NCBI RefSeq assembly: GCF_026151205.1
Contig: NC_087073.1
Location: 806,001-870,000, forward strand
Length of the DNA stretch: 64,000 nt
Direction: 5' to 3'
DNA from: Bolinopsis microptera
Taxonomy: Eukaryota; Ctenophora; Tentaculata; Lobata; Bolinopsidae
Shown: positions 30,217 to 62,314 of the stretch, one piece after another
How positions within the stretch are numbered: position 1 is the first letter of the stretch
Layout of the letters: each line of letters opens with the position of its first letter
The notes under the pieces: generated by a model
Told to the model about the DNA's origin: nothing
Seen by the model: only the letters and a program-made list of their open reading frames with translations
Database searches by the model: none
Translations under genes and position numbers: made by a program

Positions 30217-33200
30217 ACTTGTAGTGGTGTGGTAAGCAGTATAATGAGTACCTCCCCCACTTGTAGCGGTGTGGTAAGCAGTATAATGAGTACCTCCCCC
30301 CACTTGTAGCAGTGTGGTAAGCAGTATAATGAGTACCTCCCCCACTTGTAGCGGTGTGGTAAGCAGTATAATGAGTACCTCCCCCCACTTGTAGCAGTGT
30401 GGTAAGCAGTATAATGAGAACCTCCCCCACTTGTAGCGGTGTGGTAAGCATTATAATGAGTATCTCCCCCACTTGTAGCGGTGTGGTAAGCAGTATAATG
30501 AGTACCTCCCCCACTTGTAGCAGTGTGGTAAGCAGTATAATGAGTACCTCCCCCACTTGTAGCGGTGTGGTAAGCATTATAATGAGTATCTCCCCCACTT
30601 GTAGCGGTGTGGTAAGCAGTATAATGAGTACCTCCCCCACTTGTAGTGGTGTGGTAAGCAGTATAATGAGTACCTCCCCCACTTGTAGCGGTGTGGTAAG
30701 CAGTATAATGAGTACCTCCCCCACTTGTAGCGGTGTGGTAAGCAGTATAATGAGTACCTCCCCCACTTGTAGCGGTGTGGTAAGCAGTATAATGAGTACC
30801 TCCCCCACTTGTAGCGGTGTGGTAAGCAGTATAATGAGTACCTCCCCCACTTGTAGCGGTGTGGTAAGCAGTATAATGAGTACCTCCCCACTTGTAGCGG
30901 TGTGGTAAGCAGTATAATGAGTACCTCCCCCACTTGTAGCGGTGTGGTAAGCAGTATAATGAGTACCTCCCCCACTTGTAGCGGTGTGGTAAGCAGTATA
31001 ATGAGTACCTCCCCCACTTGTAGCGGTGTGGTAAGCAGTATAATGAGTACCTCCCCCACTTGTAGCGGTGTGGTAAGCAGTATAATGAGTACCTCCCCCA
31101 CTTGTAGCGGTGTGGTAAGCAGTATAATGAGTACCTCCCCCACTTGTAGCGGTGTGGTAAGCAGTATAATGAGTACCTCCCCCACTTGTAGCGGTGTGGT
31201 AAGCAGTATAATGAGTACCTCCCCCACTTGTAGCGGTGTGGTAAGCAGTATAATGAGTACCTCCCCCACTTGTAGCGGTGTGGTAAGCAGTATAATGAGT
31301 ACCTCCCCCACTTGTAGCGGTGTGGTAAGCAGTATAATGAGTACCTCCCCCACTTGTAGCGGTGTGGTAAGCAGTATAATGAGTACCTCCCCCACTTGTA
31401 GCGGTGTGGTAAGCAGTATAATGAGTACCTCCCCCACTTGTAGCGGTGTGGTAAGCAGTATAATGAGTACCTCCCCCACTTGTAGCGGTGTGGTAAGCAG
31501 TATAATGAGTACCTCCCCCACTTGTAGCGGTGTGGTAAGCAGTATAATGAGTACCTCCCCCACTTGTAGCGGTGTGGTAAGCAGTATAATGAGTACCTCC
31601 CCCACTTGTAGCGGTGTGGTAAGCAGTATAATGAGTACCTCCCCCACTTGTAGCGGTGTGGTAAGCAGTATAATGAGTACCTCCCCCACTTGTAGCGGTG
31701 TGGTAAGCAGTATAATGAGTACCTCCCCCACTTGTAGCGGTGTGGTAAGCAGTATAATGAGTACCTCCCCCACTTGTAGCGGTGTGGTAAGCAGTATAAT
31801 GAGTACCTCCCCCACTTGTAGCGGTGTGGTAAGCAGTATAATGAGTACCTCCCCCACTTGTAGCGGTGTGGTAAGCAGTATAATGAGTACCTCCCCCACT
31901 TGTAGCGGTGTGGTAAGCAGTATAATGAGTACCTCCCCCACTTGTAGCGGTGTGGTAAGCAGTATAATGAGTACCTCCCCCACTTGTAGCGGTGTGGTAA
32001 GCAGTATAATGAGTACCTCCCCCACTTGTAGCGGTGTGGTAAGCAGTATAATGAGTACCTCCCCCACTTGTAGCGGTGTGGTAAGCAGTATAATGAGTAC
32101 CTCCCCCACTTGTAGCGGTGTGGTAAGCAGTATAATGAGTACCTCCCCCACTTGTAGCGGTGTGGTAAGCAGTATAATGAGTACCTCCCCCACTTGTAGC
32201 GGTGTGGTAAGCAGTATAATGAGTACCTCCCCCACTTGTAGCGGTGTGGTAAGCAGTATAATGAGTACCTCCCCCACTTGTAGCGGTGTGGTAAGCAGTA
32301 TAATGAGTACCTCCCCCACTTGTAGCGGTGTGGTAAGCAGTATAATGAGTACCTCCCCCACTTGTAGCGGTGTGGTAAGCAGTATAATGAGTACCTCCCC
32401 CACTTGTAGCGGTGTGGTAAGCAGTATAATGAGTACCTCCCCCACTTGTAGCGGTGTGGTAAGCAGTATAATGAGTACCTCCCCCACTTGTAGCGGTGTG
32501 GTAAGCAGTATAATGAGTACCTCCCCCACTTGTAGCGGTGTGGTAAGCAGTATAATGAGTACCTCCCCCACTTGTAGCGGTGTGGTAAGCAGTATAATGA
32601 GTACCTCCCCCACTTGTAGCGGTGTGGTAAGCAGTATAATGAGTACCTCCCCCACTTGTAGCGGTGTGGTAAGCAGTATAATGAGTACCTCCCCCACTTG
32701 TAGCGGTGTGGTAAGCAGTATAATGAGTACCTCCCCCACTTGTAGCGGTGTGGTAAGCAGTATAATGAGTACCTCCCCCACTTGTAGCGGTGTGGTAAGC
32801 AGTATAATGAGTACCTCCCCCACTTGTAGCGGTGTGGTAAGCAGTATAATGAGTACCTCCCCCACTTGTAGCGGTGTGGTAAGCAGTATAATGAGTACCT
32901 CCCCCACTTGTAGCGGTGTGGTAAGCAGTATAATGAGTACCTCCCCCACTTGTAGCGGTGTGGTAAGCAGTATAATGAGTACCTCCCCCACTTGTAGCGG
33001 TGTGGTAAGCAGTATAATGAGTACCTCCCCCACTTGTAGCGGTGTGGTAAGCAGTATAATGAGTACCTCCCCCACTTGTAGCGGTGTGGTAAGCAGTATA
33101 ATGAGTACCTCCCCCACTTGTAGCGGTGTGGTAAGCAGTATAATGAGTACCTCCCCCACTTGTAGCGGTGTGGTAAGCAGTATAATGAGTACCTCCCCCA

Positions 33201-33828
33201 CTTGTAGCGGTGTGGTAAGCAGTATAATGAGTACCTCCCCCACTTGTAGCGGTGTGGTAAGAGTATAATGAGTACCTCCCCCACTTGTAGTGGTGTGGTA
33301 AGCAGTATAATGAGTACCTCCCCCACTTGTAGCGGTGTGGTAAGCAGTATAATGAGTACCTCCCCCACTTGTAGCGGTGTGGTAAGGAGTATAATGAGTA
33401 CCTCCCCCACTTGTAGTGGTGTGGTAAGCAGTATAATGAGTACCTCCCCCACTTGTAGCGGTGTGGTAAGGAGTATAATGAGTACCTCCCCCACTTGTAG
33501 CGGTGTGGTAAGCAGTATAATGAGTACCTCCCCCACTTGTAGCGGTGTGGTAAGCAGTATAATGAGAACCTCCCCCACTTGTAGCGGTGTGGTAAGCAGT
33601 ATAATGAGTACCTCCCCCACTTGTAGCGGTGTGGTAAGCAGTATAATGAGTACCTCCCCCACTTGTAGCGGTGTGGTAAGCAGTATAATGAGAACCTCCC
33701 CCACTTGTAGTGGTGTGGTAAGCAGTATAATGAGTACCTCCCCCACTTGTAGCGGTGTGGTAAGCAGTATAATGAGTACCTCCCCCACTTGTAGCGGTGT
33801 GGTAAGCAGTATAATGTGTACCTCCCCT
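30217..33828. repeat. 42-bp minisatellite, about 86 copies (3.6 kb)
   Basis: Unit contains gtagcggtgtggtaagcagt followed by ataatgagtacctcccccac. Because 42 is a multiple of 3 and most frames lack stops, it makes false ORFs up to 1192 codons, including VVSSIMSTSPTCSG repeats on the plus strand. The middle (about 30902-33255) is almost perfectly uniform, while variants (tagtgg, cagtgt, gagaac, single-base indels) cluster at both ends, as expected for repeated homogenisation from the centre. Each unit carries a donor-like GGTAAGC. Confidence 0.97.
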
Positions 33829-37405: not shown

Positions 37406-37502
37406 ACCTGGTTACCTGGTTACCTGGTTACCTGGTTACCTGGTTACCTGGTTACCTGGTTACCTGGTTACCTGGTTACCTGGTTACCTGGTTACCTGGT
37501 TA
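37406..37502. repeat. 8-bp repeat (acctggtt)n, 12 copies
   Basis: Perfect 8-mer tandem. The same 8-mer is the core of the 87-bp composite that follows and, on the other strand, of arrays at 41128-41475 and 42747-42793. Confidence 0.97.
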
Positions 37503-38480
37503 CAGTGAGCAGGTCACAACGAGGCACAAGGAGCAAACCCAGGTAATGTCTGCGGTACCTGGTTACCTGGTTACCTGGTTAGTGGTTACAGTGAGCAGGT
37601 CACAGCGAGGCACAAGGAGCAAACCCAGATAATGTCTGCGGTACCTGGTTACCTGGTTACCTGGTTACCTGGTTACAGTGAGCAGGTCACAACGAGGCAC
37701 AAGGAGCAAACCCAGGTAATGTCTGCGGTAGTGAGCAGGTCACAACGAGGCACAAGGAGCAAACCCAGGTAATGTCTGCGGTACCTGGTTACCTGGTTAC
37801 CTGGTTACCTGGTTACAGTGAGCAGGTCACAGCGAGGCACAAGGAGCAAACCCAGATAATGTCTGCGGTACCTGGTTACCTGGTTACCTGGTTACCTGGT
37901 TACAGTGAGCAGGTCACAGCGAGGCACAAGGAGCAAACCCAGATAATGTCTGCGGTACCTGGTTACCTGGTTACCTGGTTACCTGGTTACAGTGAGCAGG
38001 TCACAGCGAGGCACAAGGAGCAAACCCAGATAATGTCTGCGGTACCTGGTTACCTGGTTACCTGGTTACCTGGTTACAGTGAGCAGGTCACAGCGAGGCA
38101 CAAGGAGCAAACCCAGATAATGTCTGCGGTACCTGGTTACCTGGTTACCTGGTTACCTGGTTACAGTGAGCAGGTCACAGCGAGGCACAAGGAGCAAACC
38201 CAGATAATGTCTGCGGTACCTGGTTACCTGGTTACCTGGTTACCTGGTTACAGTGAGCAGGTCACAGCGAGGCACAAGGAGCAAACCCAGATAATGTCTG
38301 CGGTACCTGGTTACCTGGTTACCTGGTTACCTGGTTACAGTGAGCAGGTCACAGCGAGGCACAAGGAGCAAACCCAGATAATGTCTGCGGTACCTGGTTA
38401 CCTGGTTACCTGGTTACCTGGTTACAGTGAGCAGGTCACAGCGAGGCACAAGGAGCAAACCCAGATAATGTCTGCGGTCT
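37503..38480. repeat. 87-bp composite satellite containing the 8-mer
   Basis: The higher-order unit is four copies of acctggtt followed by a 55-bp segment (starting acagtgagcaggtcac). About eight regular units run from 37770 to 38478, preceded by irregular ones with fewer or no 8-mers. The length, a multiple of 3, gives a false 241-codon ORF. Confidence 0.95.
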
Positions 38481-41127: not shown

Positions 41128-41475
41128 CCAGGTAACCAGGTAACCAGGTAACCAGGTAACCAGGTAACCAGGTAACCAGGTAACCAGGTAACCAGGTAAC
41201 CAGGTAACCAGGTAACCAGGTAACCAGGTAACCAGGTAACCAGGTAACCAGGTAACCAGGTAACCAGGTAACCAGGTAACCAGGTAACCAGGTAACCAGG
41301 TAACCAGGTAACCAGGTAACCAGGTAACCAGGTAACCAGGTAACCAGGTAACCAGGTAACCAGGTAACCAGGTAACCAGGTAACCAGGTAACCAGGTAAC
41401 CAGGTAACCAGGTAACCAGGTAACCAGGTAACCAGGTAACCAGGTAACCAGGTAACCAGGTAACCAGGTAACCAG
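41128..41475. repeat. 8-bp repeat (ccaggtaa)n, about 43 copies, perfect
   Basis: Reverse complement of the 8-mer at 37406. No interruption in 348 bp, so it is young or strongly homogenised. The 172-codon minus-strand ORF across it is an artefact. Confidence 0.98.
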
Positions 41476-47140: not shown

Positions 47141-47970
47141 GGGATATTCAGGGATATTCAGGGATATTCAGGGCTATTCAGGGATATTCAGGGCTATTCA
47201 GGGCTATTCAGGGCTATTCAGGGCTATTCAGGGCTATTCAGGGCTATTCAGGGCTATTCAGGGATATTCAGGGCTATTCAGGGCTATTCAGGGATATTCA
47301 GAGATATTCAGGGATATTCAGGGCTATTCAGGGCTATTCAGGGCTATTCAGGGATATTCAGGCATATTCAGGGATATTCAGGGATATTCAGGGATATTCA
47401 GGGATATTCAGGGCTATTCAGGGCTATTCAGGGCTATTCAGGGCTATTCAGGGATATTCAGGGCTATTCAGGGCTATTCAGGGCTATTCAGGGCTATTCA
47501 GGGCTATTCAGGGCTATTCAGGGATATTCAGGGCTATTCAGGGCTATTCAGGGATATTCAGAGATATTCAGGGATATTCAGGGCTATTCAGGGCTATTCA
47601 GGGCTATTCAGGGCTATTCAGGGCTATTCAGGGATATTCAGGGCTATTCAGGGCTATTCAGGGCTATTCAGGGCTATTCAGGGCTATTCAGGGCTATTCA
47701 GGGCTATTCAGGGATATTCAGGGCTATTCAGGGATATTCAGGGATATTCAGGGATATTCAGGGCTATTCAGGGCTATTCAGGGCTATTCAGGGCTATTCA
47801 GGGATATTCAGGGCTATTCAGGGCTATTCAGGGCTATTCAGGGCTATTCAGGGCTATTCAGGGCTATTCAGGGCTATTCAGGGCTATTCAGGGATATTCA
47901 GGGCTATTCAGGGCTATTCAGGGATATTCAGGGCTATTCAGGGCTATTCAGGGATATTCAGGGCTATTCA
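47141..47970. repeat. 10-bp satellite with two letter states, 83 copies
   Basis: Unit gggatattca or gggctattca. Rare variants gagatattca at 47301 and 47561 and ggcatattca at 47361 reveal a duplicated block about 260 bp long. ORFs of about 300 codons in two plus frames (FRAIQGYSGL repeats) are artefacts. Confidence 0.97.
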
Positions 47971-48143
47971 GGGATACCATAACTAGTCTAGATACCAAAA
48001 CTTGTAATCACAATGTTATTACCAGCAAAATATCAAATTAACCAAAGCTCGCTCTATCGTTTGGACGAATATTTCAATCCCATGACTAAAACCATCATAA
48101 CCAACTCTTAAACAATCTGAGCTTATAAACTAACGTTATTTCA

Positions 48144-48457
48144 TCATAAATCAGTCATAATGTCCGAGATATCGTCCAGATCAAGAGTGTATTTAAGAAG
48201 GAGGAAGTAAGAAAAGCCGGGGATGTCAGTAATGAGTTCCTTCTGTCGCTGACTTATTAGCTCCTTAACCAACGCCCTGTAAAGAACTTGACTGTTCTTC
48301 TGGACCATACTCTCAAACCTTATCTTGTTTTGGGCGCGTCTCGCTGCTCTCATCCAATTCCTTTGCAGTCTCTTCCTTCTCCCAACCTCTGAATCTGTGG
48401 GCTCTTCTTTCTCCTCTTCAACTGACGATCCTGTTTCTACCATCTGCTCTTCCGATT
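48144..48457 (-). CDS. Coiled-coil gene, duplicated last exon (downstream copy)
   Basis: Second copy of 50751-51064 with the same acceptor and stop. It is preceded by a nine-copy 23-bp donor array but no copy of the penultimate exon. It could serve as an alternative last exon or be a surplus copy. Confidence 0.65.
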
Positions 48458-51400
48458 CTGATGAGATGATTCGTTAAAATAAAAATATTTATCTTGTGTA
48501 GATCCGATCGAAAATAAATACTTTGTTAGTAGAGATATTGGACAACCGATGTGAGCACATATTACTGACTCTCACCTCCCCACTCCCTGCTAACTCACCT
48601 CCCCACTCCCTGCTAACTCACCTCCCCACTCCCTGCTAACTCACCTCCCCACTCCCTGCTAACTCACCTCCCCACTCCCTGCTAACTCACCTCCCCACTC
48701 CCTGCTAACTCACCTCCCCACTCCCTGCTAACTCACCTCCCCACTCCCTGCTAACTCACCTCCCCACTCCAGAATTTGGACCAGAACACTATAACAGGTC
48801 ACTCTATGACTCGAATTAGCGTGTAGAAATTGCAGCAGCACGCTATGTACACTGCAGGAGCAACTGCAGACACCATTTACATGTTGCAGTATGAGCCAAA
48901 AATCGAGCAATTATCATCCATTGAAGGCTGAGAATTACCACATAAAAAGTGTACTAAGGATCTTGAGATGGCCTGAAACTTGATATGCACCGATAATTGG
49001 GGTAAATGAAAACTTCTACTGTAAAAAGAGATTAATCATCAAGCTATTTCATATCACTGTAGCAACTCATTGATCATCCTTCACCCTAATTCATGTTTTC
49101 CAGCTGCAGACTGAACAAAAGTGTACCTACAGAACGACAATCTTCTGTCTTGGTTCGTGTTTGGAGTTATCACTATCAGAGCAGTAAGCACCAATGATCT
49201 TCTGTCTTGGTTGGTGTTTGGAGTTATCACTATCAGAGCAGTAAGCTAACTCACCTCCCCACTCCCTGCTAATGATCAGCTCGGCAGTGGACTATGGAGT
49301 TAAACGCCAATATGATGGTTAAAAGACGTATAATGGTATGGATTAAGGGAGCTTTTCATTGAAGTAGGTGAGTGGACTGTAGTACTACTGTGACTAGTAG
49401 GTGAGTGGACTGTAGTACTACTGTGACTAGTAGGTGAGTGGACTGTAGTACTACTGTGACTAGTAGGTGAGTGGACTGTAGTACTACTATGACTAGTAGG
49501 TGAGTGGACTGTAGTACTACTGTGACTAGTGAGTGAGTGGACTGTAGTACTACTGTGACTAGTAGGTGAGTGGACTGTAGTACTACTGTGATTAGTAGGT
49601 GAGTGGACTGTAGTACTACTGTGACGTACCTTATCGGACCTTATTTGGACGGACATTACTTGAACGCTGGAGGCCCTAGCGTTCATCTTAATGTCCGTTC
49701 AAATAAAGTCCGTTCAATTAATGTCCGTCCAAGTTAAAGTCCGTTGAATTTTTTTCAAAAAGTTTTTCATTTCGAACTTTTTGTCCAGAATATGACAACT
49801 TTTTATTGAAGTAGGTGAGTAGACTGTAGTACTACTAATACTATGACGTAGTACTTTTTCGCATAACCGCATTTAGGTTTTAGGACACAAGCAAAAATGA
49901 ATCTCATCTTGATGTACTGTAGTGCTACTTGAGGTAACTTAATCTGGGCCGGTGGATAATATCGTGAATATGAAAGATAAGGTTTTTACCATAGCAACAC
50001 TAAAGAGTCCACCTTAAATTAGGCAATATGATGCAAGGAAAACAGCGAATTTTAATTGCAATGTAACAACATCAGAACTTCAGTACAATTAAACATGAAA
50101 CTTTCCCAGTTAAACGAAATATTGGAAACCGAAATCATAAAGGAATAAGACAAAATACTAGGATTTCTCAGGATATATTCCAGTACAATCACGCCTACTT
50201 AAATAGCTGTGAACTCAACCTCACTTTGAGTAGCAAATCACCACACGGGTGAGTGGGTGACATCTTTCAATATCCAGCATTCTGTTACAGAATTTCTGTA
50301 TCCTGAAACTCCGATCACTTCCATTCAATATGTCAACACCTTGGCAATATTGTGAAGCTCTTAACACAAATTCCCCTTTTATGTTTTTGATATAAGTTGC
50401 TTTATCGTTCAAAATTCATCTGGTATACAAGTGTTTGTATTAGAATCACAGTGAAGTCCACATAACTGTTGCAATTTGCATGCTGAGCTTGTGGTCGGCA
50501 GAATATAGAAATATTTACAGGGAAATTTGCATATTCAGGGATATTCAGGGCTATTCAGGGATATTCAGGGCTATTCAGGGATACCATAACTACTCTAGAG
50601 ACCATAACTTATAATCACAATGTTATTACCAGCAAAATATCAAATTAACCAAAGCTCACTCTATCGTTTGGACGAATATTTCAATCCTATGACTAAAACC
50701 ATCATAACCAACTCTTAAACAATCTGAGCTTATAAACTAACGTTATTTCATCATAAATCAGTCATAATGTCCGAGATATCGTCCAGATCAAGAGTGTATT
50801 TAAGAAGGAGGAAGTAAGAAAAGCCGGGGATGTCAGTGATAAGCTCCTTCTGTCGCTGACTTATTAGCTCCTTAACCAACGCCCTGTAAAGAACTTGACT
50901 GTTCTTCTGGACCATACTCTCAAACCTTATCTTGTTTTGGGCGTGTCTCGCTGCTCTCATCCAATTCCTTTGCAGTCTCTTCCTTCTCCCAACCTCAGAG
51001 TCTGTGGGCTCTTCTTTCTCCTCTTCAACTGACGATCCTGTTTCTACCATCTGCTCTTCCGATTCTGATGAGATGATTCGTTAAAATAAAAATATTTATC
51101 TTGTATAGATCCGATCGAAAATAGATAATTTGTTAGTAGAAATATTGAACAACCGATGTGAGCATATATTACTGTCTCTCACCTCCCCACCCCCTGCTAA
51201 CTCACCTCCCCACTCCCTGCTAACTCACCTCCCCACTCCCTGCTAACTCACCTCCCCACTCCCTGCTAACTCACCCCCCCACTCCCTGCTAACTCACCCC
51301 TTCACTCCCTGCTAACTCACCTCCCCACTCCCTGCTAACTCACCTCCCCACTCCCTGCTAACTAACCTCCCCACTCCCTGCTAACTCACCTCCCCACTCC

Positions 51401-54400
51401 CTGCTAACTCACCTCCCCACTCCCTGCTAACTCAACTCCCCACTCCCTGCTAACTCACCTCCCCACTCCCTGCTAACTCACCTCCCCACTCCCTGCTAAC
51501 TAACCTCCCCACTCCCTGCTAACTCACCTCCCCACTCCCTGCTAACTCACCTCCCCACTCCCTGCTAACTCAACTCCCCACTCCCTGCTAACTCACCTCC
51601 CCACTCCCTGCTAACTCACCTCCCCACTCCCTGCTAACTCACCTCCCCACTCCCTGCTAACTCACCTCCCCACTCCCTGCTAACTCACCTCCCCACTCCC
51701 TGCTAACTCACCTCCCCACTCCCTGCTAACTCACCTCCCCACTCCCTGCTAACTCACCTCCCCACTCCCTGCTAACTCACCTCCCCACTCCCTGCTGACT
51801 CACCTCCCCACTCCCTGCTAACTCACCTCCCCACTCCCTGCTAACTCACCTCCCCACTCCCTGCTAACTCACCTCCCCACTCCCTGCTAACTCACCTCCC
51901 CACTCCCTGCTAACTCACCCCCCCCCCTCACTCCCTGCTAACTCACCTCCCCACTCTCTGCTAACTCACCTCCCCACTCCCTGCTAACTCCCCACCCCCT
52001 GCTAACTCACCTCCCCACTCCCTGCTAACTCACCTCCCCACTCCCTGCTAACTCACCTCCCCACTCCCTGCTAACTCACCCCTTCACTCCCTGCTAACTC
52101 ACCTCCCCACTCCCTGCTAACTCACCTCCCCACTCCCTGCTAACTAACCTCCCCACTCCCTGCTAACTCACCTCCCCACTCCCTGCTAACTCACCTCCCC
52201 ACTCCCTGCTAACTCAACTCCCCACTCCCTGCTAACTCACCTCCCCACTCCCTGCTAACTCACCTCCCCACTCCCTGCTAACTCACCTCCCCACTCCCTG
52301 CTAACTCACCTCCCCACTCCCTGCTAACTCACCTCCCCACTCCCTGCTAACTCACCTCCCCACTCCCTGCTAACTCACCTCCCCACTCCCTGCTAACTCA
52401 CCTCCCCACTCCCTGCTAACTCACCTCCCCACTCCCTGCTAACTCACCTCCCCACTCCCTGCTAACTCACCTCCCCACTCCCTGCTGACTCAACTCCCCA
52501 CTCCCTGCTAACTCACCTCCCCACTCCCTGCTAACTAACCTCCCCACTCCCTGCTAACTCACCTCCCCACTCCCTGCTAACTCATCTCCCACTCCCTGCT
52601 AACTCACCTCCCCACTCCCTGCTGACTCACCTCCCCACTCCCTGCTAACTCACCCCCCCCCCCCCCCCCACTCCCTGCTAACTCACCTCCCCACTCCCTG
52701 CTAACTCACCTCCCCACTCCCTGCTAACTCACCTCCCCACTCCCTGCTAACTCACCTCCCCACTCCCTGCTAACTCACCTCCCCACTCCCTGCTAACTCA
52801 CCTCCCCACTCCCTGCTAACTCACCTCCCCACTCCCTGCTAACTCACCTCCCCACTCCCTGCTAACTCACCTCCCCACTCCCTGCTAACTCACCCCCCAC
52901 TCCCTGCTAACTCACCTCCCCACTCCCTGCTAACTCACCTCCCCACTCCCTGCTAACTCACCTCCCCACTCCCTGCTAACTCACCTCCCCACTCCCTGCT
53001 AACTCACCTCCCCACTCCCTGCTAACTCACCTCCCCACTCCCTGCTAACTCACCTCCCCACTCCCTGCTAACTCACCTCCCCACTCCCTGCTAACTCACC
53101 TCCCCACTCCCTGCTAACTCACCTCCCCACTCCCTGCTAACTCATCTCCCCACTCCCTGCTAACTCACCTCCCCACTCCCTGCTAACTCACCTCCACACT
53201 CCCTGCTAACTCACCTCCCCACTCCCTGCTAACTCACCTCCCCACTCCCTGCTAACTCACCTCCCCACTCCCTGCTAACTCACCTCCCCACTCCCTGCTA
53301 ACTCACCTCCCCTCTCCCTGCTAACTCACCTCCCCACTCCCTGCTAACTCACCTCCCCACTCCCTACTAACTCACCTCCCCTCTCCCTGCTAACTCACCT
53401 CCCCACTCCCTGCTAACTCACCTCCCCACTCCCTGCTAACTCACCTCCTCACTCCCTGCTAACTCACCCCCCACTCCCTGCTAACTCACCCCCCACTCCC
53501 TGCTAACTCACCTCCCCACTCCCTGCTAACTCACCTCCCCACTCCCTGCTAACTCACCTCCACACTCCCTGCTAACTCACCTCCCCACTCCCTGCTAACT
53601 AACCTCCCCACTCCCTGCTAACTCACCTCCCCACTCCCTGCTAACTCACCTCCCCACTCCCTGCTAACTCACCTCCCCACTCCCTGCTAACTCACCTCCA
53701 CACTCCCTGCTAACTCACCTCCCCACTCCCTGCTAACTAACCTCCCCACTCCCTGCTAACTCACCTCCCCACTCCCTGCTAACTCACCTCCCCACTCCCT
53801 GCTAACTCACCTCCCCACTCCCTGCTAACTCACCTCCCCACTCCCTGCTAACTCACCTCCCCACTCCCTGCTAACTCACCTCCCCACTCCCTGCTAACTC
53901 ACCTCCCCACTCCCTGCTAACTCACCTCCCCACTCCCTGCTAACTCACCTCCCCACTCCCTGCTAACTCACCTCCCCACTCCCTGCTAACTCACCTCCCC
54001 ACTCCCTGCTAACTCACCTCCCCACTCCCTGCTAACTCACCTCCCCACTCCCTGCTAACTCACCTCCCCACTCCCTGCTAACTCACCTCCCCACTCCCTG
54101 CTAACTCACCTCCCCACTCCCTGCTAACTCACCTCCCCACTCCCTGCTAACTCACCTCCCCACTCCCTGCTAACTCACCTCCCCACTCCCTGCTAACTCA
54201 CCTCCCCACTCCCTGCTAACTCACCTCCCCACTCCCTGCTAACTCACCTCCCCACTCCCTGCTAACTCACCTCCCCACTCCCTGCTAAGTTTGGCAAGTC
54301 TCTCCTCCTCAGCTTGTCTTTCCCGGGATCTCTCCAGCAGCTGATGCAACTCCTCTTTCACTCTCAGCTCCTTCATACGTTTCATCTCATCTTCTTCTAG

Positions 54401-57400
54401 CAGTCTTAGATCCTCCTCCTGAACAATGAGGGGTTTAGTAAACCATTATAAATTAAACCACATGGTTACTATAGTTACTAGTAACTATAGTAACTAGAAG
54501 CTGGTTACTATAGTAACTAGTAACTGCAGTCTTAGATCCTCCTCCTGAACAATGAGGGGTTCAGTAAACCATTATAAATTAAACCAGAACTCTAATTATT
54601 CTCCTGTTGGGGACCTACTATTCTGTAAGTGTATCAGCATATTAGTAGTCAAAACATTCAGTAACAGAACAGGTTTTCATAAAGCACAAATTATTCTAAC
54701 CTGTTTGAACTGTTCGAGTCTGGCTTGACGTTCCTTCTCATTAAGATGAGCCATCTCGAACAGCCTTATTCTCTGCATATGAACATTATCTCTCTCGCTA
54801 GCCTCGTCAATAATCTTCATCCTCACCCTCATCAGAGCTCTCTGTACAATTTATCATTTTGAAAATACAGCTAAATACAGAGGGTATCGGATTAAAAACA
54901 CGATACAACAAAAGTCTTAGAGTTAGACCTAAGTTACTGAAACTAACCTGTCTCCTCAGCCTGAGCTCTGCCATGGTAACCTTCCTGTATCTGATAATGC
55001 CCTCCTGTTTCTCCCTCACTACCAGTATTCTGAGTCTTCTTTTTTCAGCTGCTTGTAACCTTTTCATCTGCACAGTCGTCAGCGCCTTGCCTGTCAGTGC
55101 ATCTGCCTGGTGGGTACTCATTATTGGCAAATACCATAATTATATCAGATCATATTGAGATTCTTTAAAAGGTTTGAGCACTGTGGCTTCTCAAGACAAC
55201 AAACCTCAAGCCACCAAACTAACTAATAACAACCCCCCCCTAGATAACCAATATAGTTACTAGTAAACTAGTTAGATTCTTGAGAGTTTAAACTCCGCCT
55301 TGAACTTCAAGTTTTATACTTCAATTTGAAGTAGTCCGTGAGTACAAATTAAAACCTAACTTGAATGTCTTACTTTGGTTTGAGAGTCGGGAGACGGAGT
55401 TTCACTATACATCTTGCTTGGAGAAGGGGTCGTTCCACAAGAGTCATTGGCGAGGTAGTCATTTGCTCTGGAGGAGAATCCGGACGAAAGATCATCAACA
55501 ATATCAAAATTCTGGGAGTCAAGCTGAAAAAACGTTAAATATATTCAACTGAGATAGACTAACAGAAATAATGATCGTATCAGTACAGTTTTATTTTATT
55601 TACTTTCACAGTTTTTTGTTAAACTTTCAAGCGGTAAACTAGTTTATTTTCTATATTCTTTCAGACTTTTATTTAAGTCTAGTTAATAGTTATACATTAT
55701 TCTATCATATTTTATTGATCTAAGGTGTAGTATTGCCAGATCCTAGTTAATTTTGTAACGGAGTTTTATACTAACAGGAAACGATGTAACAGAGTCGATA
55801 TATTTTAATGTTGCCATGGGGTGGCAAGTCCCCATACATCGCAGTCCGGTAGTTTCATTGCGTCCTAATATATAAACTACTTACTTACAGAGCCTATTCA
55901 AAAGTTCACAATTAAAACTCACGTCATCCGTATCCAAGTATTCGGACAGGTTTTTGATGGTGTCGAGGAAAACATCAAATGCCTCCTCCGTCAACTCCTC
56001 GTCCGGCAGAGTGTTGACACTGGTGAAGATATCCTTTATCTTCTTCTGAACCTGAACAAGGATAATTTCATCTAGCCTGCACGTGGGCACGCGCGCGCCT
56101 GCTAACAATGTCACCTAGCCTACTGTTGACGACTAACAAGGTATTAATAATGTCACCTAGCCTGCTGGTGACGACTAACAAGGTATTAAAAATGTCACCT
56201 AGCCTGCTGGTGACGACTAACAAAATTAAGGTATTAATAATGTCACCTAGCCTGCTGGTGACGACTAACAAGGTATTAAAAATGTCACCTAGCCTGCTGG
56301 TGACGACTAACAACTAACAAGGTATTAATAATGTCACCTAGCCTGCTGGTGACGACTAACAAGGTATTAAAAATGTCACCTAGCCTGCTGGTGACGACTA
56401 ACAAAATTAAGGTATTAATAATGTCACCTAGCCTGCTGGTGACGACTAACAAGGTATTAAAAATGTCACCTAGCCTGCTGGTGACGACTAACAACTAACA
56501 AGGTATTAATAATGTCACCTAGCCTGCTGGTGACGACTAACAAGGTATTAAAAATGGAATATATACTCAATTTATTCTGCCCCATGTTGTTCAGATCAAT
56601 GTTACAAACCTCTTTTTTATTTTTGGGATCCACTTTAACTTCCATCTCCGTGCTGGTTTCAGGACTTTTTGATTTTGCTTGTTTTGGTGACGATTTCTTT
56701 TTTCCTTTCTTCTTGATCTTGGGCTTCTTTGGTGCTTTGACAACTTTTGGAGGCTGCTGGTCCGACGGAGCAGTTGCCATTTTCGTGATGGATATTTCTG
56801 GTAGAACCGGCTGCAAGAAATGATATTCAATATACATATTATCAGGTAACTTGCTTAATATCATACAGCTAATTAAATAAACTGTTATGAGCTGCTGTTG
56901 GCAACCGTCCAGCAATTACCGGCTCTGGAGTAGGGGGTTGAGCAATGATAGGTATAATGGGTGTTTCGTGTGGGAGTCTGGAACACAAACTAACTGGCTC
57001 TGGAGTAGGGGGTTGAGCAATGATGGGTATAATGGGTGTTTCGTGTGGAGGGATGGGAGTCTGGAACACAAACTAACCGGCTCTGGAGTAGGGGGTTGAG
57101 CAATGATGGGTATAATGGGTGTTTCGTGTGGAGGGATGGGAGTCTGGAACACAAACTAACCGGCTCTGGAGTAGGGGGTTGAGCAATGATGGGTATAACG
57201 GGTGTTTCGTGTGGAGGGATGGGAGTCTGGAACACAAACTAACCGGCTCTGGAGTAGGGGGTTGAGCAATGATGGGTATAATGGGTGTTTCGTGTGGAGG
57301 GATGGGAGTCTGGAACACAAACTAACCGGCTCTGGAGTAGGGGGTTGAGCAATGATGGGTATAATGGGTGTTCGTGTGGGAGTCTGGAACACAAACTAAC

Positions 57401-60400
57401 CGGCTCTGGAGTAGGGGGTTGAGCAATGATGGGTATAATGGGTGTTTCGTGTGGAGGGATGGGAGTCTGGAACACAAACTAACCGGCTCTGGAGTAGGGG
57501 GTTGAGCAATGATGGGTATAATGGGTGTTTCGTGTGGAGGGATGGGAGTCTGGAACAGGATGGTTCCTGAATCTGAGGGTGTAGAAGGGAGAGTGGGCGG
57601 AGGGGACAGAATGGCGCTGTAGGCGTGGTTAGATATGTTGCTTCTTGGGTACGACATCTCGTTTGATCTGTCATCTAGCTCCTCTAAACCTCTTGCTAGA
57701 TCTGTTTTGCCTGATGAATTGAGGTTGTTATGAGAGAGAAGAAGACGATCTACATTCCACAGATTTAGCTACTCAAACTCATTAGTCAGTCAGCATGCTC
57801 ACTTTCCTCCAACATTCCACACATTTAGCTACTCAAACTCATTAGTCAGTCAGCATGCTCACTTTCCTCCAACAAGTCCTGGTGTTACTAACTGACGGGT
57901 GATGAATAAAAAATGGGACTACATGTTTTTTAGCCCTCAGATTCCACCTGAACAAAATTTTGATATTTTACCACAACCACCAGTTACTCTGAACGATACT
58001 CGAACAGTTTCCGCCCCCATTTGATCAAATTGGTTGATCTTTGTCCCCGATAATGGTCTCGAACTAGGGGAGGGGTCCTATAAAAGTTTTACAGTAAAGC
58101 ACTGTTCGCAGAAGTCGCCTCACAGGTAGTTAAAGCTTCCATACCAAAAAATATTTAGCAGAGAGTATGCCGAATTTTATGCTTAAGACGAGGGTTCAAC
58201 ACCCATCAGCGTAGCTAAAACCAGTAAGAAGATATTTGAGCTCAAAACCACCTGAGGGGTAAAATTTTACCGTGCGAAAGATCGAGGCTAGGTCAACTAT
58301 CGGCTTTAGCATGGTCTATAATGGTACCTCGTAAAAATCAAAGTGCTTGAAGCCTTGCCAGGTGTTGTTCCTACAAGAAAATATCCAAAGGGTGGAAGGT
58401 GGTTCGTTAGGATGGGGCTAGATCGTATTTTTCTGGGAAAACCACATCTTTATTTGCCATAAGGGCCAATTTCGTCCCAAAAGTTATCGACCAAAGTAAA
58501 TTTTGACAATCTCAACCCATAGAAGACTTCTTTAGTATCCTGGCAACACATGTACATGCCCGGAATATGGCTAACAAGCATACATGGGCCCTAGATCGTA
58601 TTTTTCTATGAAAACCACATCTTTATTTGCCATAGGGTTAATTTCGTCCCAAAAGTGATCGACCAAAGTAAATTTTGACAATCTCAACCCATAGAAGACT
58701 TCTTTAGTATCCTGGCAACACATGTACATGCCCGGAATATGGCTAACAAGCATACATGGGCCCTAGGGCACAAAAGAAGAGACTGCGCCAACACGATTTT
58801 AGGCCCAACTGTACAGACGAATTTTTTAGCTTGAAGAAAGAAGCCCTCCTGAACCGATCAAAATGGGCTCATGGGCGCTTGTCATTGACCATACTTGTTC
58901 AAAATTGCCCGCTTCACAACGCTGTTTCATTGGTTTGAACCAAAAATAGTTTTATCGACACTAAAAAGACCTTTGAAAAAAGTCCCATTTTTTAGTCATC
59001 ACCCGTTATACAGCAATGATTTACAGAATTGACATGTGAAATCTACCCTATATCTAGCACATTTATGAGTCAATTAAATTCTACAAGGTTTACAAGGTTT
59101 ACAAAAAGTTTACAAAAAATAGATCTAAATTACAGTGAGATAATGTCAGATCAGCATAGCTAAAGGTCAAAGTCCGAAATCCAAATAGAAAATCCGTTAC
59201 CATTAAGGTGTTTGATGAGTGTAAAGAAAAAGTGAAAATGAAGGGGCTGTGGAGGAAATGTGATATCCCGTACTGAGACACTAATGTTCGTGTTTCTTCT
59301 TTATAGGGAATCGTGTTCTGCACAGCTGAGCGACGAACTTGGTGAATTCCACTATGTGCTCCGGTAGAAAGAGGCTCTTCTGATGGATCACATCACTACT
59401 GATGGATCACATCACTAATTATACGTCACTAATTAGTGATATGATCTGACCCCTGATAATTTGGGGCCCCCCTATGTATAACTATACCACCACTAGGTGT
59501 CACTGCACAGTTAATACCTGTCGAGTCAGGAGAAGAGTTGGCACTCCGCCAACCAGGCCGGCACCAGTCCTGTTCATTCTCGTCCGTCTCAGTTACCTGG
59601 GATGGAGACCACTACAGATTTTCATCTTAAAGTTAAAATTGCATCACTATTATTATAATTAATATTTGACTGTAATCATGTAAAAATCGTTGACACATAG
59701 CAGTAACATTAGTTATTTACTTTTTTAGTTAAAAACGTGATGATTACTCATCATGTCTATGATCAGGCGAGTCCTTGTGAATTCATTAATCATTTAATTT
59801 TCTAAAGAACTAGTAAATAATTAAGTAAGCAAGCAAAATCGTGCGGTTGCTAGCCGTCGGGCCAACAACATTACTGCTTCAGCCAGCGTTAATGCTTCAA
59901 ATAATTGCATTTTGACACAGCACATGCTAAAACACAAACCTTAGAAATAAAAGGAAGACTATTTAGTCTAATTCTATAAAAGGAAAGAATCCTAACCTTA
60001 TTAAGAGGTTGATCTACCGCTAGAGAAGTTGTAGATGCTGAAGAAGTGTAACCAAGGTAACGAGGATGTGCTGTAGATTTATTGGGTTGCAGGGATGTAG
60101 AGGTAGGGTGGGATAGCCTAGAGCAGATACTAGTGCTTGTACTGATCGAATCCTGGGGGCTGAGACATGTACACAGAACATGCTACATGCAGGACATGCT
60201 CAATGCTTGTAATGCTTATTAAACAATGCTTATTTTAGAGAACTGTGAGCGGTCTGTAGTCAGGTAGTCTTGTAATGAGGCTGACATCTAAAAGACTGAC
60301 CGGTGAGTGACTAACTGATTAAAAGCTCAATTATCAAAATAAAAGTTTGATTGTGAATATGATTCATGCTGATGTAGTGTAATATGATTCATGCTGATGT

Positions 60401-62314
60401 AGTGTAATATGATTCATGCTGATGTAGTGTAATATGATTCATGCTGATGTAGTGTAATATGGTATGAATACTGATGAATGTTTATATTTGCGGCAAGAAG
60501 GTCAGCTATCAGCGTGGTTTGAGGCTGATGTACTTGAAGGTGGTTACTATAGTAACTAGTAACTATAGTAACCACGTGGTTTGAGGCTGGTGTACTTGAA
60601 GGTGGTTACTATAGTAACTAGTAACTATAGTAACCACGTGGTTTGAGGCTGGTGTACTTGAAGGTGGTTACTATAGTAACTAGTAACTATAGTAACCACG
60701 TGGTTTGAGGCTGGTGTACTTGAAGGTGGTTACTATAGTAACTAGTAACTATAGTAACCACGTGGTTTGAGGCTGGTGAACTAGAAGGTGGTTACTATAG
60801 TAACTAGTAACTATAGTAACCACGTGGTTTGAGGCTGGTGAACTTGTTCAACTCACCGTGCCGCTTGGGGGAGGAGAGAGACCAGGGGTTATCCTAAATG
60901 ATCTAGATGTTGCTCCTGAAGAGTAAGATCTGTTCTCTGCCGTTGTCTGAAACACGAGGGATGTCACGTGACCATGGTAACCTGATCACGTGACCATAGT
61001 AACAGAAACACGAGGGATGTCAATGTCATGAACTGCGAAAAAGTTCAATTTTAATCCATTTTGGGCATTTTATTCTTCGACACGTTGTGTAACACACCGT
61101 GTTGTGTTATTTTACATTTTTTGAACCACTGCGAACCAGTGAGAATCAATAAAAAAGTCACCACAGATAAGAATAACGGCACACGGATTATAATGGCTTA
61201 TCAGTGGTACCACACCTCTACCAAGTGAACTTGCTCCAGGTTGATTCCCCCTCCACTGCAGATTGAGGAGCCTGCCATCGTGTTTGGCGGAACTGAGGCT
61301 CTGTTCGGGGGTCTCCTCCGCCTCTTCGGTGCTTGAGCACATTTCTTCAAATAGTTCTCGAACTGCAACATCTGTCTCGCGGTTAATATCGAACCTAAAA
61401 CTTGCTGACAACAACGAAAATGTGCTGTCTTGCACCCCTGGTCCCCTGAGCATTACCTGTCGCTGGTGCTCCTCCCATCTGGCAGTCTTGGCCCGGTCCG
61501 CCCTCTCCTGTCTCTTCTCCTCCTCCTGGTTCCTCTTTTTCAACCTGTTCCGCAGCTGCTTCATCCTCTGAGGGTAGTTACTATGGTTACTATGGTTACC
61601 AGCTGCTTCATCCTCTGAGGGTAGTTACTATGGTTACTATGGTTACTAGTTACTATAGTTACCAGCTGCTTCATCCTCTGAGGGTAGTTACTATGGTTAC
61701 TATGGTTACTATAGTTACCAGCTGCTTCATCCTCTGAGGGTAGAGCTCATTAGTTGAGTGAGGAACAGAGCTTCGCACAATGAGTTAAAATGTGATTCAA
61801 AAGTAAATCAAACCTTTTCCAGCGAGAAAATTATTGTTTTCTTAAGGGGGGAGAGGGGGTACCTGGTAGATGGTGTTGGGGGTACCTGGTAGATGGTGTT
61901 GGGGGGGGGGGGTACCTGGTAGATGGTGTTGGGGGTACCTGGTAGATGGTGTTGGAGGAACCTGGTAGATGGTGTTGGGGGGGTACCTGGTAGATGGTGT
62001 TGGGGGGTACCTGGTAGATGGTGTTGGGGGTACCTGGTAGATGGTGTTGGGGGGTACCTGGTAGATGGTGTTGGGGGGTACCTGGTAGATGGTGTTGGGG
62101 GGTACCTGGTAGATGGTGTTGGGGGGGACCTGGTAGATGATGTTGGGGGTACCTGGTAGATGGTGTTGGGGGGGTACCTGGTAGATGGTGTTGGGGGGTA
62201 CCTGGTAGATGGTGTTGGACAGCAGATCTCGTCTCCCCATGCTGGCCGGCACATTTACCAAGACGACTTGGCAGCTGATAACAGGCTCAAAAGAGCTCGC
62301 TTCTATATCTCCCC
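48144..62314 (-). CDS. Multi-exon coiled-coil, Lys/Glu-rich protein gene (overall span, 5' end not found)
   Basis: Minus-strand gene reconstructed from splice sites and phase. Exons in transcript order: 62314-62202 (tentative), 61567-61457, 61404-61222, 60946-60857, 60152-59997, 59379-59281 (in-frame stop, possible end), 57768-57484, 66-nt exon copies 57466-56920, 56810-56610, 56051-55923, 55523-55374, 55106-54948, 54841-54701, 54418-54271, and the last exon 51064-50751 or its duplicate 48457-48144. Junctions are phase 0 except the last (phase 1), and all match. The N-terminal half is Ser/Pro-rich; the C-terminal half is a predicted coiled coil (Arg/Glu/Leu-rich). I do not recognise an ortholog. 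A cytoskeletal, centrosomal or ciliary role is only a guess from composition. The stop at 59281 means this could be two genes. Introns are filled with satellites made from the exon borders. Confidence 0.65.
48570..48770. repeat. 23-bp splice-donor minisatellite, about nine copies
   Basis: Same unit as 51177-54286, upstream of the duplicated last exon. Confidence 0.95.
49364..49627. repeat. 33-bp minisatellite, eight copies
   Basis: Unit gtaggtgagtggactgtagt followed by actactgtgacta. The matching place in copy 1 (about 45799) has a single unit. Each unit includes GGTGAGT, a donor-like string on the plus strand. Confidence 0.95.
49632..49746. repeat. Fold-back motif cluster (copy 2)
   Basis: Duplicate of 45836-45953 with a five-base insertion beside the hairpin loop. 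Confidence 0.6.
50221..50412 (-). CDS. Duplicated small ORF of unknown status (copy 2)
   Basis: Counterpart of 46797-46994; same frame and same uncertainty. Confidence 0.2.
   Translation of the reverse strand: MNDKATYIKNIKGEFVLRASQYCQGVDILNGSDRSFRIQKFCNRMLDIERCHPLTRVVICYSK
50538..50577. repeat. 10-bp satellite, four copies
   Basis: Alternating a and c types. Probably the unexpanded state of 47141-47970. Confidence 0.95.
50751..51064 (-). CDS. Coiled-coil gene, last exon (copy nearest the upstream exons)
   Basis: Acceptor catcag, 104 codons to a TGA at 50751-50753. Begins ESEEQMVETGSSVEEE across the junction and ends in a hydrophobic-acidic helix (YFLLLKYTLDLDDISDIM). Compared with the downstream duplicate there are five silent changes and one replacement (H here, R there), which implies selection on the frame. 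Confidence 0.8.
51177..54286. repeat. 23-bp splice-donor minisatellite, about 135 copies (3.1 kb)
   Basis: Minus-strand unit AGCAGGGAGTGGGGAG|GTGAGTT, where the bar is the exon-intron border of the penultimate exon. Nearly every copy keeps GTGAGT. Variants include gaggtgagt to gttgagt or gttagt and C-run expansions at about 51918 and 52652. Blocks of variant order recur (for example 51250-51600 and 52080-52260), showing higher-order duplication. Confidence 0.97.
54271..54418 (-). CDS. Coiled-coil gene, penultimate exon, donor amplified into a satellite
   Basis: 49 codons plus one base. Acceptor gttcag, donor GGGGAG|GTGAGT, phase 1, which matches the two-base start of the last exon. Coiled coil (EEDLRLLEEDEMKRMKELRV). 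Its last 16 nt together with the first 7 nt of the intron are the unit of the 23-bp array that fills the intron. Confidence 0.82.
54399..54597. repeat. Duplicated acceptor of the penultimate exon with a palindromic spacer
   Basis: About 70 bp including the acceptor and the first 19 nt of the exon occurs at 54399-54470 and again at 54527-54597. Between them lie three versions of GTTACTATAGTAAC-type palindromes. Confidence 0.9.
54701..54841 (-). CDS. Coiled-coil gene, 47-codon exon
   Basis: Acceptor gtacag, donor CAG|GTTAGA, phase 0. Continuous charged helix (MKIIDEASERDNVHMQRIRL). Confidence 0.8.
54948..55106 (-). CDS. Coiled-coil gene, 53-codon exon
   Basis: Acceptor caccag, donor CAG|GTTAGT, phase 0. 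Helical, basic: VQMKRLQAAEKRRLRILVVR. Confidence 0.78.
55374..55523 (-). CDS. Coiled-coil gene, 50-codon acidic/Ser exon
   Basis: Acceptor ttttcag, donor AAA|GTAAGA, phase 0. Includes LDSQNFDIVDDLSSGF and TTPSPSKMYSETPSPDS. Confidence 0.75.
55923..56051 (-). CDS. Coiled-coil gene, 43-codon exon
   Basis: Acceptor gttcag followed by GTTCAG (a second AG six bases on), donor GAC|GTGAGT, phase 0. Acidic helical segment (LPDEELTEEAFDVFLDTIKN). Confidence 0.78.
56105..56551. repeat. Minisatellite of about 41-46 bp with hairpin core, about 11 copies
   Basis: Unit aatgtcacctagcctgctgg followed by tgacgactaacaaggtatta. GTCACC and GGTGAC in each unit form a short stem. Two unit types alternate in a block of about 89 bp, with an aaattaa insertion at two places 178 bp apart. 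Lies in the intron between the 67- and 43-codon exons. Confidence 0.93.
56610..56810 (-). CDS. Coiled-coil gene, lysine-rich 67-codon exon
   Basis: Acceptor cttgcag, donor GAG|GTTTGT, phase 0. Starts PVLPEISITKMATAPS and has a long basic segment (KKPKIKKKGKKKSSPKQAK). Confidence 0.72.
56920..57466 (-). repeat. 83-bp exon satellite: seven further copies of a 66-nt exon separated by 17-nt GT...AG spacers
   Basis: Copies on the minus strand: 57466-57401, 57383-57327 (nine bases shorter, still in frame), 57309-57244, 57226-57161, 57143-57078, 57060-56995, 56977-56920 (eight bases shorter). Each full copy encodes 22 residues (TPIPPHETPIIPIIAQ then PPTPEP), starts after ttccag and ends before GTTAGT. 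The spacer is gttagtttgtgttccag. The unit of 83 is not a multiple of 3, so unspliced reading shifts frame, whereas removing 17 bases keeps it. The last copy ends at a different donor, GTAATT. Only one copy may be used; a 17-nt intron would be far below the usual animal minimum. Confidence 0.85.
57484..57768 (-). CDS. Coiled-coil gene, 95-codon exon ending in the first copy of the 22-aa repeat
   Basis: From acceptor gagtag to donor CCG|GTTAGT, phase 0. Begins LNLWNVDRLLLSHNN, continues with DLARGLEELDDRSNEMSYP and a proline-rich end that includes TPIPPHETPIIPIIAQ. The region before the acceptor is duplicated at a 60-bp period. Confidence 0.7.
57752..57871. repeat. 60-bp tandem duplication covering a splice acceptor
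   Basis: Two copies (57752 and 57812) of acattccacagatttagcta onward. Each includes the ctactcaaac tract that forms the acceptor of the 95-codon exon on the minus strand. Confidence 0.93.
57895..59006. mobile_element. Non-autonomous DNA transposon, 1112 bp, 26-bp TIRs
   Basis: Left end ACGGGTGATGAATAAAAAAT at 57895 matches the complement of the right end (ACGGGTGATGACTAAAAAAT, 58981-59006) over 26 bp with one mismatch. The target-site duplication is not clear. No transposase. Contains two tandem copies of a 168-170 bp block (from about 58421 and 58590). Lies in an intron of the coiled-coil gene. Confidence 0.82.
59007..59280. other. Intronic or intergenic AT-rich sequence
   Basis: Lies between the stop-containing exon and the transposon. 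Short tttacaa repeats near 59090. A stop and gene end just upstream would make this the 3' flank of an upstream gene. Confidence 0.4.
59281..59379 (-). CDS. Exon with in-frame stop: end of an upstream gene or alternative terminal exon
   Basis: After a duplicated acceptor (gatccatcag), 32 codons starting KSLFLPEHIVEFTKFV run to a TAG at 59281-59283. Phase 0 fits the preceding exon. If used, the upstream exons (60-62 kb) form a separate protein ending IKKKHEH. If skipped, the reading frame continues into the exon at 57768, also phase 0. Confidence 0.5.
   Translation of the reverse strand, partial: KSLFLPEHIVEFTKFVAQLCRTRFPIKKKHEH
59384..59996. other. Intron sequence, no further exon supported
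   Basis: Starts with a 19-bp duplication of the acceptor (ctgatggatcacatcacta, about 59380-59417). The rest is AT-rich. A 62-codon plus-strand ORF at 59474-59662 lacks support. Confidence 0.5.
59997..60152 (-). CDS. Coiled-coil gene, Ser/Thr-rich 52-codon exon
   Basis: Acceptor cccccag, donor AAG|GTTAGG, phase 0. Sequence such as DSISTSTSICSRLS suggests a disordered, phosphorylatable segment. Confidence 0.68.
60361..60461. repeat. 25-bp minisatellite, four copies
   Basis: Unit gattcatgctgatgtagtgt followed by aatat. Confidence 0.94.
60514..60850. repeat. 62-bp minisatellite with a long near-palindrome, five and a half copies
   Basis: Each unit contains a 32-bp near-palindrome beginning GGTTACTATAGTAAC and ending GTAACTATAGTAACC (two mismatched positions), followed by CACGTGG. 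It begins about 15 bases inside the intron after the 30-codon exon. Cruciform formation is possible. Confidence 0.93.
60857..60946 (-). CDS. Coiled-coil gene, 30-codon exon
   Basis: Acceptor gtttcag, donor ACG|GTGAGT, phase 0. Ser/Pro-rich (YSSGATSRSFRITPGLSPPP). The acceptor tract (cacgagggatgtca on plus) is duplicated at 60953 and 61009. Confidence 0.7.
61222..61404 (-). CDS. Coiled-coil gene, exon starting QVLGSILTARQM
   Basis: 61 codons between acceptor gttgtcag and donor TTG|GTAGAG, phase 0 to 0. This frame was preferred to the overlapping frame that reads on from the previous exon without splicing (150 codons) because it is the one that joins the flanking exons. Basic patch AQAPKRRRRPPN. 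Confidence 0.68.
61457..61567 (-). CDS. Coiled-coil gene, exon starting RMKQLRNRLKK
   Basis: 37 codons, phase 0 on both sides, acceptor ccctcag, donor CAG|GTAATG. Strongly charged helix (KKRNQEEEKRQERADRAK). The intron to the next exon is only 52 bp. Confidence 0.75.
61554..61743. repeat. Microexon-like repeat: four copies of acceptor plus 15 nt plus donor
   Basis: On the minus strand, CCCTCAG|AGGATGAAGCAGCTG recurs with starts at 61567, 61614, 61677 and 61733. In the three upstream copies it is followed at once by GTAACT, a usable donor. Fifteen nt are five codons in frame (RMKQL). Spacers of 32-48 bp consist of GTAACTATAGTAACCAT-type repeats. Confidence 0.88.
61857..62217. repeat. Donor-derived minisatellite of about 24 bp, 15 copies
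   Basis: Minus-strand unit CCAACACCATCTACCAG|GTACC plus a variable run of C. It reproduces the end of the tentative upstream exon and its donor. G-run length varies from 4 to 12. ORFs of 139-148 codons across it are artefacts. Confidence 0.93.
62202..62314 (-). CDS. Coiled-coil gene, tentative upstream exon
   Basis: Open frame containing GDIEASSFEPVISC and PASMGRRDLLSNTIYQ, ending at a GT donor (CCAG|GTACC) in phase 0, which fits the next exon. The acceptor gaacag is reasonable and leaves two leading bases. The donor is followed by about 15 copies of the same junction. Confidence 0.45.

Follow-up and report, generated by a model that had tools for sequence, protein, structure and literature searches.

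For human genes located in segmental duplications, De Grassi and Ciccarelli (2009, PMC2812944) have described internal tandem repeats at exon-intron boundaries. According to the available portion of that paper, the repeats are on average 30 bp long, occur in 4 copies and alter intron structure. The preliminary description of the locus studied here stated that no named class of repeat is defined by the junctions it copies; in view of the human boundary repeats, as they appear in the accessible part of the same source, this was too strong. Tandem duplication across splice signals (AGGT) is also a documented route of intron gain (PMC3443670, PMC2891723), and intron gain by tandem genomic duplication is treated in a further paper (PMC4974935), as far as the available text of these three sources goes. 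Our literature search, which had little reach into subscription papers, found no description of splice-junction minisatellites at the copy numbers reported below. Intron gain by tandem genomic duplication was reportedly the subject of Gao and Lynch in 2009, and Zhuo et al. are said to have dealt in 2007 with human introns from tandem arrays, where, to go by the title, the arrays supply alternatively spliced introns.

In the ctenophore Bolinopsis microptera (264.65 Mb and 232 contigs were analysed), exon-intron borders are sometimes taken into short tandem repeats and copied from 2 to about 135 times, and this is found in several unrelated genes.

Repeated splice junctions in one gene

The window, that is, the whole stretch of 64,000 nucleotides that was analysed, contains 86 TRF rows. 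Its minus-strand gene was rebuilt by hand as 14 exons, and the exon structure is our own model. The frame of this model is unbroken through exon 6, but exons 6 and 7 join out of frame, and the border between them is therefore uncertain. The attempt to name the gene failed: three pieces of its protein matched no family in Pfam, and one piece searched against PDB gave nothing convincing (best E 0.26), so the gene is left without a name. Over 20 first-order shuffles of positions 48570-62218, TRF returned 0 rows, and the arrays of this gene are therefore not due to chance. Minisatellites are tandem units of roughly 10-100 bp, and the junction-containing tandem units of this gene measure 23-83 nt. 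A junction-spanning array is present at 5 of the 26 junctions of the model.

The junctions were checked base by base in 32-nt windows centred on each of them, together with the common stretches on their flanks. Nine junctions had been listed in the preliminary description as copied with their splice sites. Six of the nine are indeed copied with both splice site and exon sequence, at 59379 the copy includes the AG only, and at 60946 and 57768 it is without the AG. All features described in the following are on the minus strand.

The putative first coding exon (62202..62240, MGRRDLLSNTIYQ, from reading and the model) has its donor copied in an array at 61848..62219, where TRF finds 15 copies of a 24-nt unit, in agreement with the earlier count of about 15; the unit consists of 17 nt of exon and 7-8 nt of intron. 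The coding exon at 61457..61567 (RMKQLRNRLKK... in the hand-built model) has its acceptor in the four copies expected, each with 15 exon nt, in an array at 61553..61743 in which TACCCTCAG/AGGATGAAGCAGCTG, with the slash at the junction, alternates with GTAAC-rich inserts. The donor at 54271 belongs to an array of about 135 copies of a 23-nt unit at 51178..54288, again as first estimated. The exact motif GAG/GTGAGT is found in 113 of the copies, and the GT is kept in 121 of 126 near-full copies. The acceptor at 54418 is present twice (54400..54586), as had been noted, with a 61-nt match on the two sides of a GTTACTATAGTAAC-type palindromic insert; this insert parts the copies, and the pair is an exception to strict head-to-tail order. 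The last coding exon (50751..51064, hand-built model) also exists in two copies, here as part of a larger duplication in which 47924-48770, comprising the end of the 23-nt array and the last exon, is a duplicate of 50531-51377 at 96.9%.

A different picture emerged for what had been taken as a whole 66-nt exon repeated 8 times with both of its splice sites. The donor at 57484 is copied about 8 times in 83-nt units (56918..57557), including six further near-full copies and a last one that, by reading, has a different donor. What looks like an acceptor, TTCCAG, is coding sequence of the longer exon to which the donor belongs, and the 17 nt that separate the copies are too few to form an intron of their own. 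The copies are therefore donor-junction copies, not independent exons, and we interpret the "66-nt exon" as the 3′ part, with the donor, of a longer exon.

At three acceptors the repeat stops at or before the splice site. The tract at 60946 is doubled around a palindromic insert (60947..61020, by reading and junction comparison), and the first copy is without the AG. It has TTTCTG in place of the TTTCAG of the acceptor; the upstream tract alone is repeated. Likewise, the 60-nt duplication upstream of exon 7 (57752..57874) repeats only the tract upstream of 57768, with no AG in its first copy. Copying of the acceptor is thus refuted by these comparisons at both places. At 59379, a 19-nt acceptor tract including the AG does occur in 2 copies (59380..59417), as reported, but not a single exon base is repeated with it. 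A 62-nt array at 60513..60846 lies within the intron that follows the donor at 60857 and excludes the junction.

Genome-wide, the palindrome GTTACTATAGTAAC is present at 210 places, compared with 5 for the reversed word, and in the window it is found at 54504-54517 and 60543-60804, inside two duplicated segments. Inserts of this type were considered as drivers of the duplications and rejected: a direct repeat extends across 2 of 6 clusters, all of them in the window, compared with 119 of 1020 random placements.

The remainder of the window is also rich in repeats. Positions 1-28000 hold several tandem copies of a gene block, which match each other with 90-98% identity over about 0.5-5 kb; the predicted protein of this block is presumably DHHC palmitoyltransferase-like, judging from its translation. 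Arrays of the octamers CCAGGTAA and ACCTGGTT, which are donor-like too, are present at 41128-41475 and 37406-38478. Finally, all three minus-strand frames of a 42-nt array of 86 copies at 30217-33827 have long open stretches, and a synonymous bias is absent from all frames of this array.

Junction-containing arrays in other genes

A random sample of 28 10-kb loci (280 kb) was taken as the first 28 of 160 places drawn by script on six contigs. A gene finder with fixed splice matrices, which over-predicts, served as a guide only; 13 gene models were picked by hand from the 28 loci and the remainder was dropped. Names such as GATA, PDE, CHD4 and PKD2, which we take to apply to some of these genes, come from recognition of their translations. 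Junction duplications are present in 3 of the 13 hand-picked genes, and internal tandem repeats span the exon-intron border at 4 of their 132 junctions. Junction-containing tandem arrays recur in unrelated genes: a BTAF1/Mot1-like gene, a G-protein-beta gene, an unnamed gene (L014) and a Sushi-type gene.

The G-protein-beta gene (L016) has four copies of an acceptor together with 44 exon bases, and the sequence between the copies is of the CATCATCACGT type. Its spliced model matches Pfam PF25391 at 4.3e-164 over residues 4-320, and the junction lies inside the matched span. In L014, an acceptor junction is present in two copies; a "PX" label for this gene was discarded, as no Pfam family matched. 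Another of the 10-kb loci, L011, has 25 TRF rows and consists in large part of degenerate GCTAGTAGCACAC-type repeat.

The Sushi-type locus is on contig C1. Four clusters of the donor 9-mer MAGGTRAGT are found at the start of this contig among the matches listed, and one of the four is a donor-junction array with a 54-nt unit, in which the motif CACCAAGAAAG is repeated exactly 44 times without change. A Sushi exon lies downstream of it; in the query (L032), the Sushi match is to this exon after the array and not to the array's own exon. A second cluster is a donor junction in 2 copies at a nearby Sushi exon. The other two, the donor-motif arrays L034 and L035 (the latter at 1998053), have no recognisable exon at their place by reading. 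In all, pairs or arrays of the 5′ splice-site 9-mer occur at at least 11 places among 100 matches listed, all of them on C1.

In the BTAF1/Mot1-like gene (L021), the unit is 69 nt long, 64 exon and 5 intron bases, and is present in 40 copies. The junction is supported by homology: the spliced model, with the array left out, matches Mot1-type structures at 6.6e-38 and shows no gap at the join. A second junction of the gene, at 5165, has a short donor duplication. The 40 copies at L021:6120-8880 are in frame and encode the same 23 residues, with the exception of Gly for Val in copy 1. The array has zero indels and zero stops over its 40 copies, and in the 39 copies after the first, all five distinct changes are synonymous in the exon frame (P=0.002, on few events), and all five spare GTTAG. 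No synonymous-biased frame was found in 10 other arrays, one of which is without any change. Such a pattern may stem from translation of the array, with purifying selection on its peptide, or from repeated copying of the constrained exon.

Placement of duplications relative to junctions

Duplications were sought by an ungapped scan (at least 20 nt, 85% identity, lag of 10 to 420, simple repeats excluded) and compared with a null model in which each founder is placed uniformly over introns and their borders; duplications wholly internal to exons were excluded. For the random loci, the test covers the 13 hand-picked genes with 66 introns and 132 junctions, and a junction call allows 3 nt. Four of the 18 near-tandem duplications in these genes include a junction, against 2.25 expected (P=0.16), an observed/expected ratio of 1.78 (95% CI 0.48-4.55). 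In the window gene, which was chosen as striking, the corresponding figures are 5 of 10 against 3.12 expected (P=0.15; ratio 1.60, CI 0.52-3.74). Exons missing from the models lower the expected number, and the true excess is therefore smaller if anything. The frequency of junction copies is compatible with uniform placement. The preliminary description had suggested that the repeat-forming process favours splice junctions and had proposed a genome-wide comparison; its own test, performed here in small form, does not support this. A junction-seeking process is not supported at present, with a confidence interval that reaches an excess of about 4.5-fold.

Two other comparisons were replaced or set aside. 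A placement test limited to TRF arrays gave 2 of 27 arrays against 3.1 expected for the random loci and 3 of 11 against 3.7 for the window gene; it was replaced because its periods were inflated and the G-beta acceptor was missed. Neither this test nor its replacement shows a significant junction excess. The first control, in 9 genes, found copies at 721 of 4694 intron windows, at 3 of 98 junctions and, inside exons, at 13 of 1162 windows, and was set aside because each copy of an array was counted.

The donor motif was also examined directly. Genome-wide, pairs of MAGGTRAGT 15-45 nt apart number 1601, versus 77 for the reversed motif, a comparison that counts copies, not founders, and uses a single control motif; single sites number 10382 versus 8307. 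Of the 64 AGGTRAG founders in the 280 kb of random loci, 1 is clustered, which is less than the mean of 4.2% for 200 shuffled motifs, and no donor-motif excess is seen in this sample.

Breakpoints of the donor arrays show more structure. In seven arrays (three in the window gene, two in the BTAF1-like locus and two in the Sushi-type locus), the intron part of the unit is 5, 5, 6, 8, 10, about 11 and 12 nt; for 57484 the figure comes from reading, against an exact common prefix of 2, and for 5165 from a 20-nt match. The mean relative position of the breakpoints is 0.22, which differs from uniform at P=0.0045, or 0.012 without 57484, in a test that is post hoc. The mean GC of the units (0.373 in 30 non-exonic TRF rows) is close to that of introns (0.377), and a simple GC preference therefore fails to explain the short intron parts.

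Origin and maintenance of the arrays

Probably, these arrays arise by ordinary tandem duplication and are tolerated when splicing takes out the extra copies; we regard this as the best explanation. The genome would readily make short tandem duplications, some of which grow into minisatellites. Where such a duplication runs across an exon-intron border it would be nearly harmless, given that one outer copy still links the true exon to the intron and splicing can discard the others as intron; the copy retained would be the first for a donor and the last for an acceptor. Because they are nearly harmless, border-spanning duplications would survive and grow as freely as those internal to introns, and exon-internal ones would survive mainly with a unit that is a multiple of three. 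The TRF arrays internal to exons in the 13 genes occur at three places. Their units, 15, 30 and 21 nt long, are each divisible by three, as such a selective filter predicts; at junctions and in introns the unit lengths are diverse. If extra copies stayed in the message, those of 23, 83 and 65 nt would shift the frame, and the 54-nt Sushi-gene unit has an in-frame TGA. Given the 23- and 83-nt units and this TGA, read-through of the extra copies would therefore be damaging in those genes. We infer both the neutrality of the extra copies and which of them is spliced. Some observations do not sit easily with neutrality: the point estimates of 1.78 and 1.60 are both above 1, the tandem 9-mer pairs outnumber those of the reversed motif, the short intron parts of the donor units are unpredicted by uniform placement, the donor bases are constant in the Sushi-gene and BTAF1-like arrays, and the BTAF1-like array, on the evidence of its codons, behaves as if it were translated.

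Duplication might instead be drawn to junctions, chiefly to 5′ splice sites, for example by transcription-coupled damage or by pausing at U1-bound nascent RNA, which would make them hotspots. The donor breakpoints fall close to the U1-pairing region, the tandem 9-mer pairs far outnumber those of the reversed motif, and two junctions were hit in the BTAF1-like gene and two neighbouring ones at the Sushi-type locus. On balance we think hotspots of this kind unlikely, since the random-locus test is without significant excess, the clustered founders in the 280 kb fall below the shuffled-motif mean, and the seven arrays of the post hoc breakpoint test come from three loci. It is doubtful, furthermore, that the 5′ splice site itself sets the breakpoints of donor duplications through a transcription- or splicing-coupled process that makes splice-site minisatellites genome-wide. 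The unit would then be an exon tail with little beyond the U1-pairing stretch, and stop-free arrays with units that are multiples of three could become coding and turn intron bases into protein, as might be the case in the BTAF1-like gene. Alternatively, the copies may be kept for a function, with the extra 5′ splice sites acting as decoys or U1 traps, or with splice variants that differ in unit number. The many exact donors in a single intron of the window gene, the open and synonymously changing BTAF1-like array and the fact that GTAAGT is intact in all 36 full-length Sushi-gene copies would fit such a role. However, the 135-copy array shows, if anything, greater variation in its donor columns than elsewhere (12 of 673 bases at +1 to +5 are non-consensus, versus 21 of 2417 exon-derived bases, P=0.054), and decoy donors are therefore not specially preserved there; the earlier suggestion that decoys are tolerated agrees with this. 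The constancy of the donor in the Sushi-gene and BTAF1-like arrays says little because there are 5 distinct changes in each (1 of 5 is synonymous in the former), and the 23- and 83-nt units would bring a frame shift and the Sushi-gene unit a stop. A functional role thus seems improbable to us. Finally, it is very improbable that the phenomenon is an artefact of mis-called exons or of arrays inflated by the assembler. The window gene, with no homologue detected from the pieces searched against Pfam and PDB and one model junction out of frame, could raise this concern, but the G-beta and BTAF1-like junctions are fixed by homology, the arrays of the several genes differ in their units, and the copies within them differ from each other.

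If the inner copies are silent, the arrays are natural experiments in splice-site choice, with 40 to 135 near-identical donors in a row. In some genes the sole frame-preserving donor is the first one. The arrays allow a direct test of whether the spliceosome, faced with equal sites, takes the first or the last, and of the way in which duplications at exon edges contribute to the growth of introns and to changes in exons.

Comparison with known systems

The arrays resemble the human internal tandem repeats in having minisatellite-scale units at exon-intron boundaries, but, as far as the available portion of that paper goes (PMC2812944), they are unlike them in that the units keep an existing splice site and reach 40-135 copies. 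The human repeats, in the same portion, are found in recent paralogues, whereas here 3 of 13 hand-picked random-locus genes are concerned. As in intron gain by tandem duplication, to judge from the accessible text of PMC3443670, a short duplication spans splice signals and splicing would remove the extra copy. The examined copies each carry one true site with its flank, and the partner site lies elsewhere; a donor and an acceptor are not supplied by one duplication. Unlike intron gain as presented there, no new intron is evident: the border that is copied is that of an intron already present in the model and made longer by the copies, and not an exonic proto-splice site.
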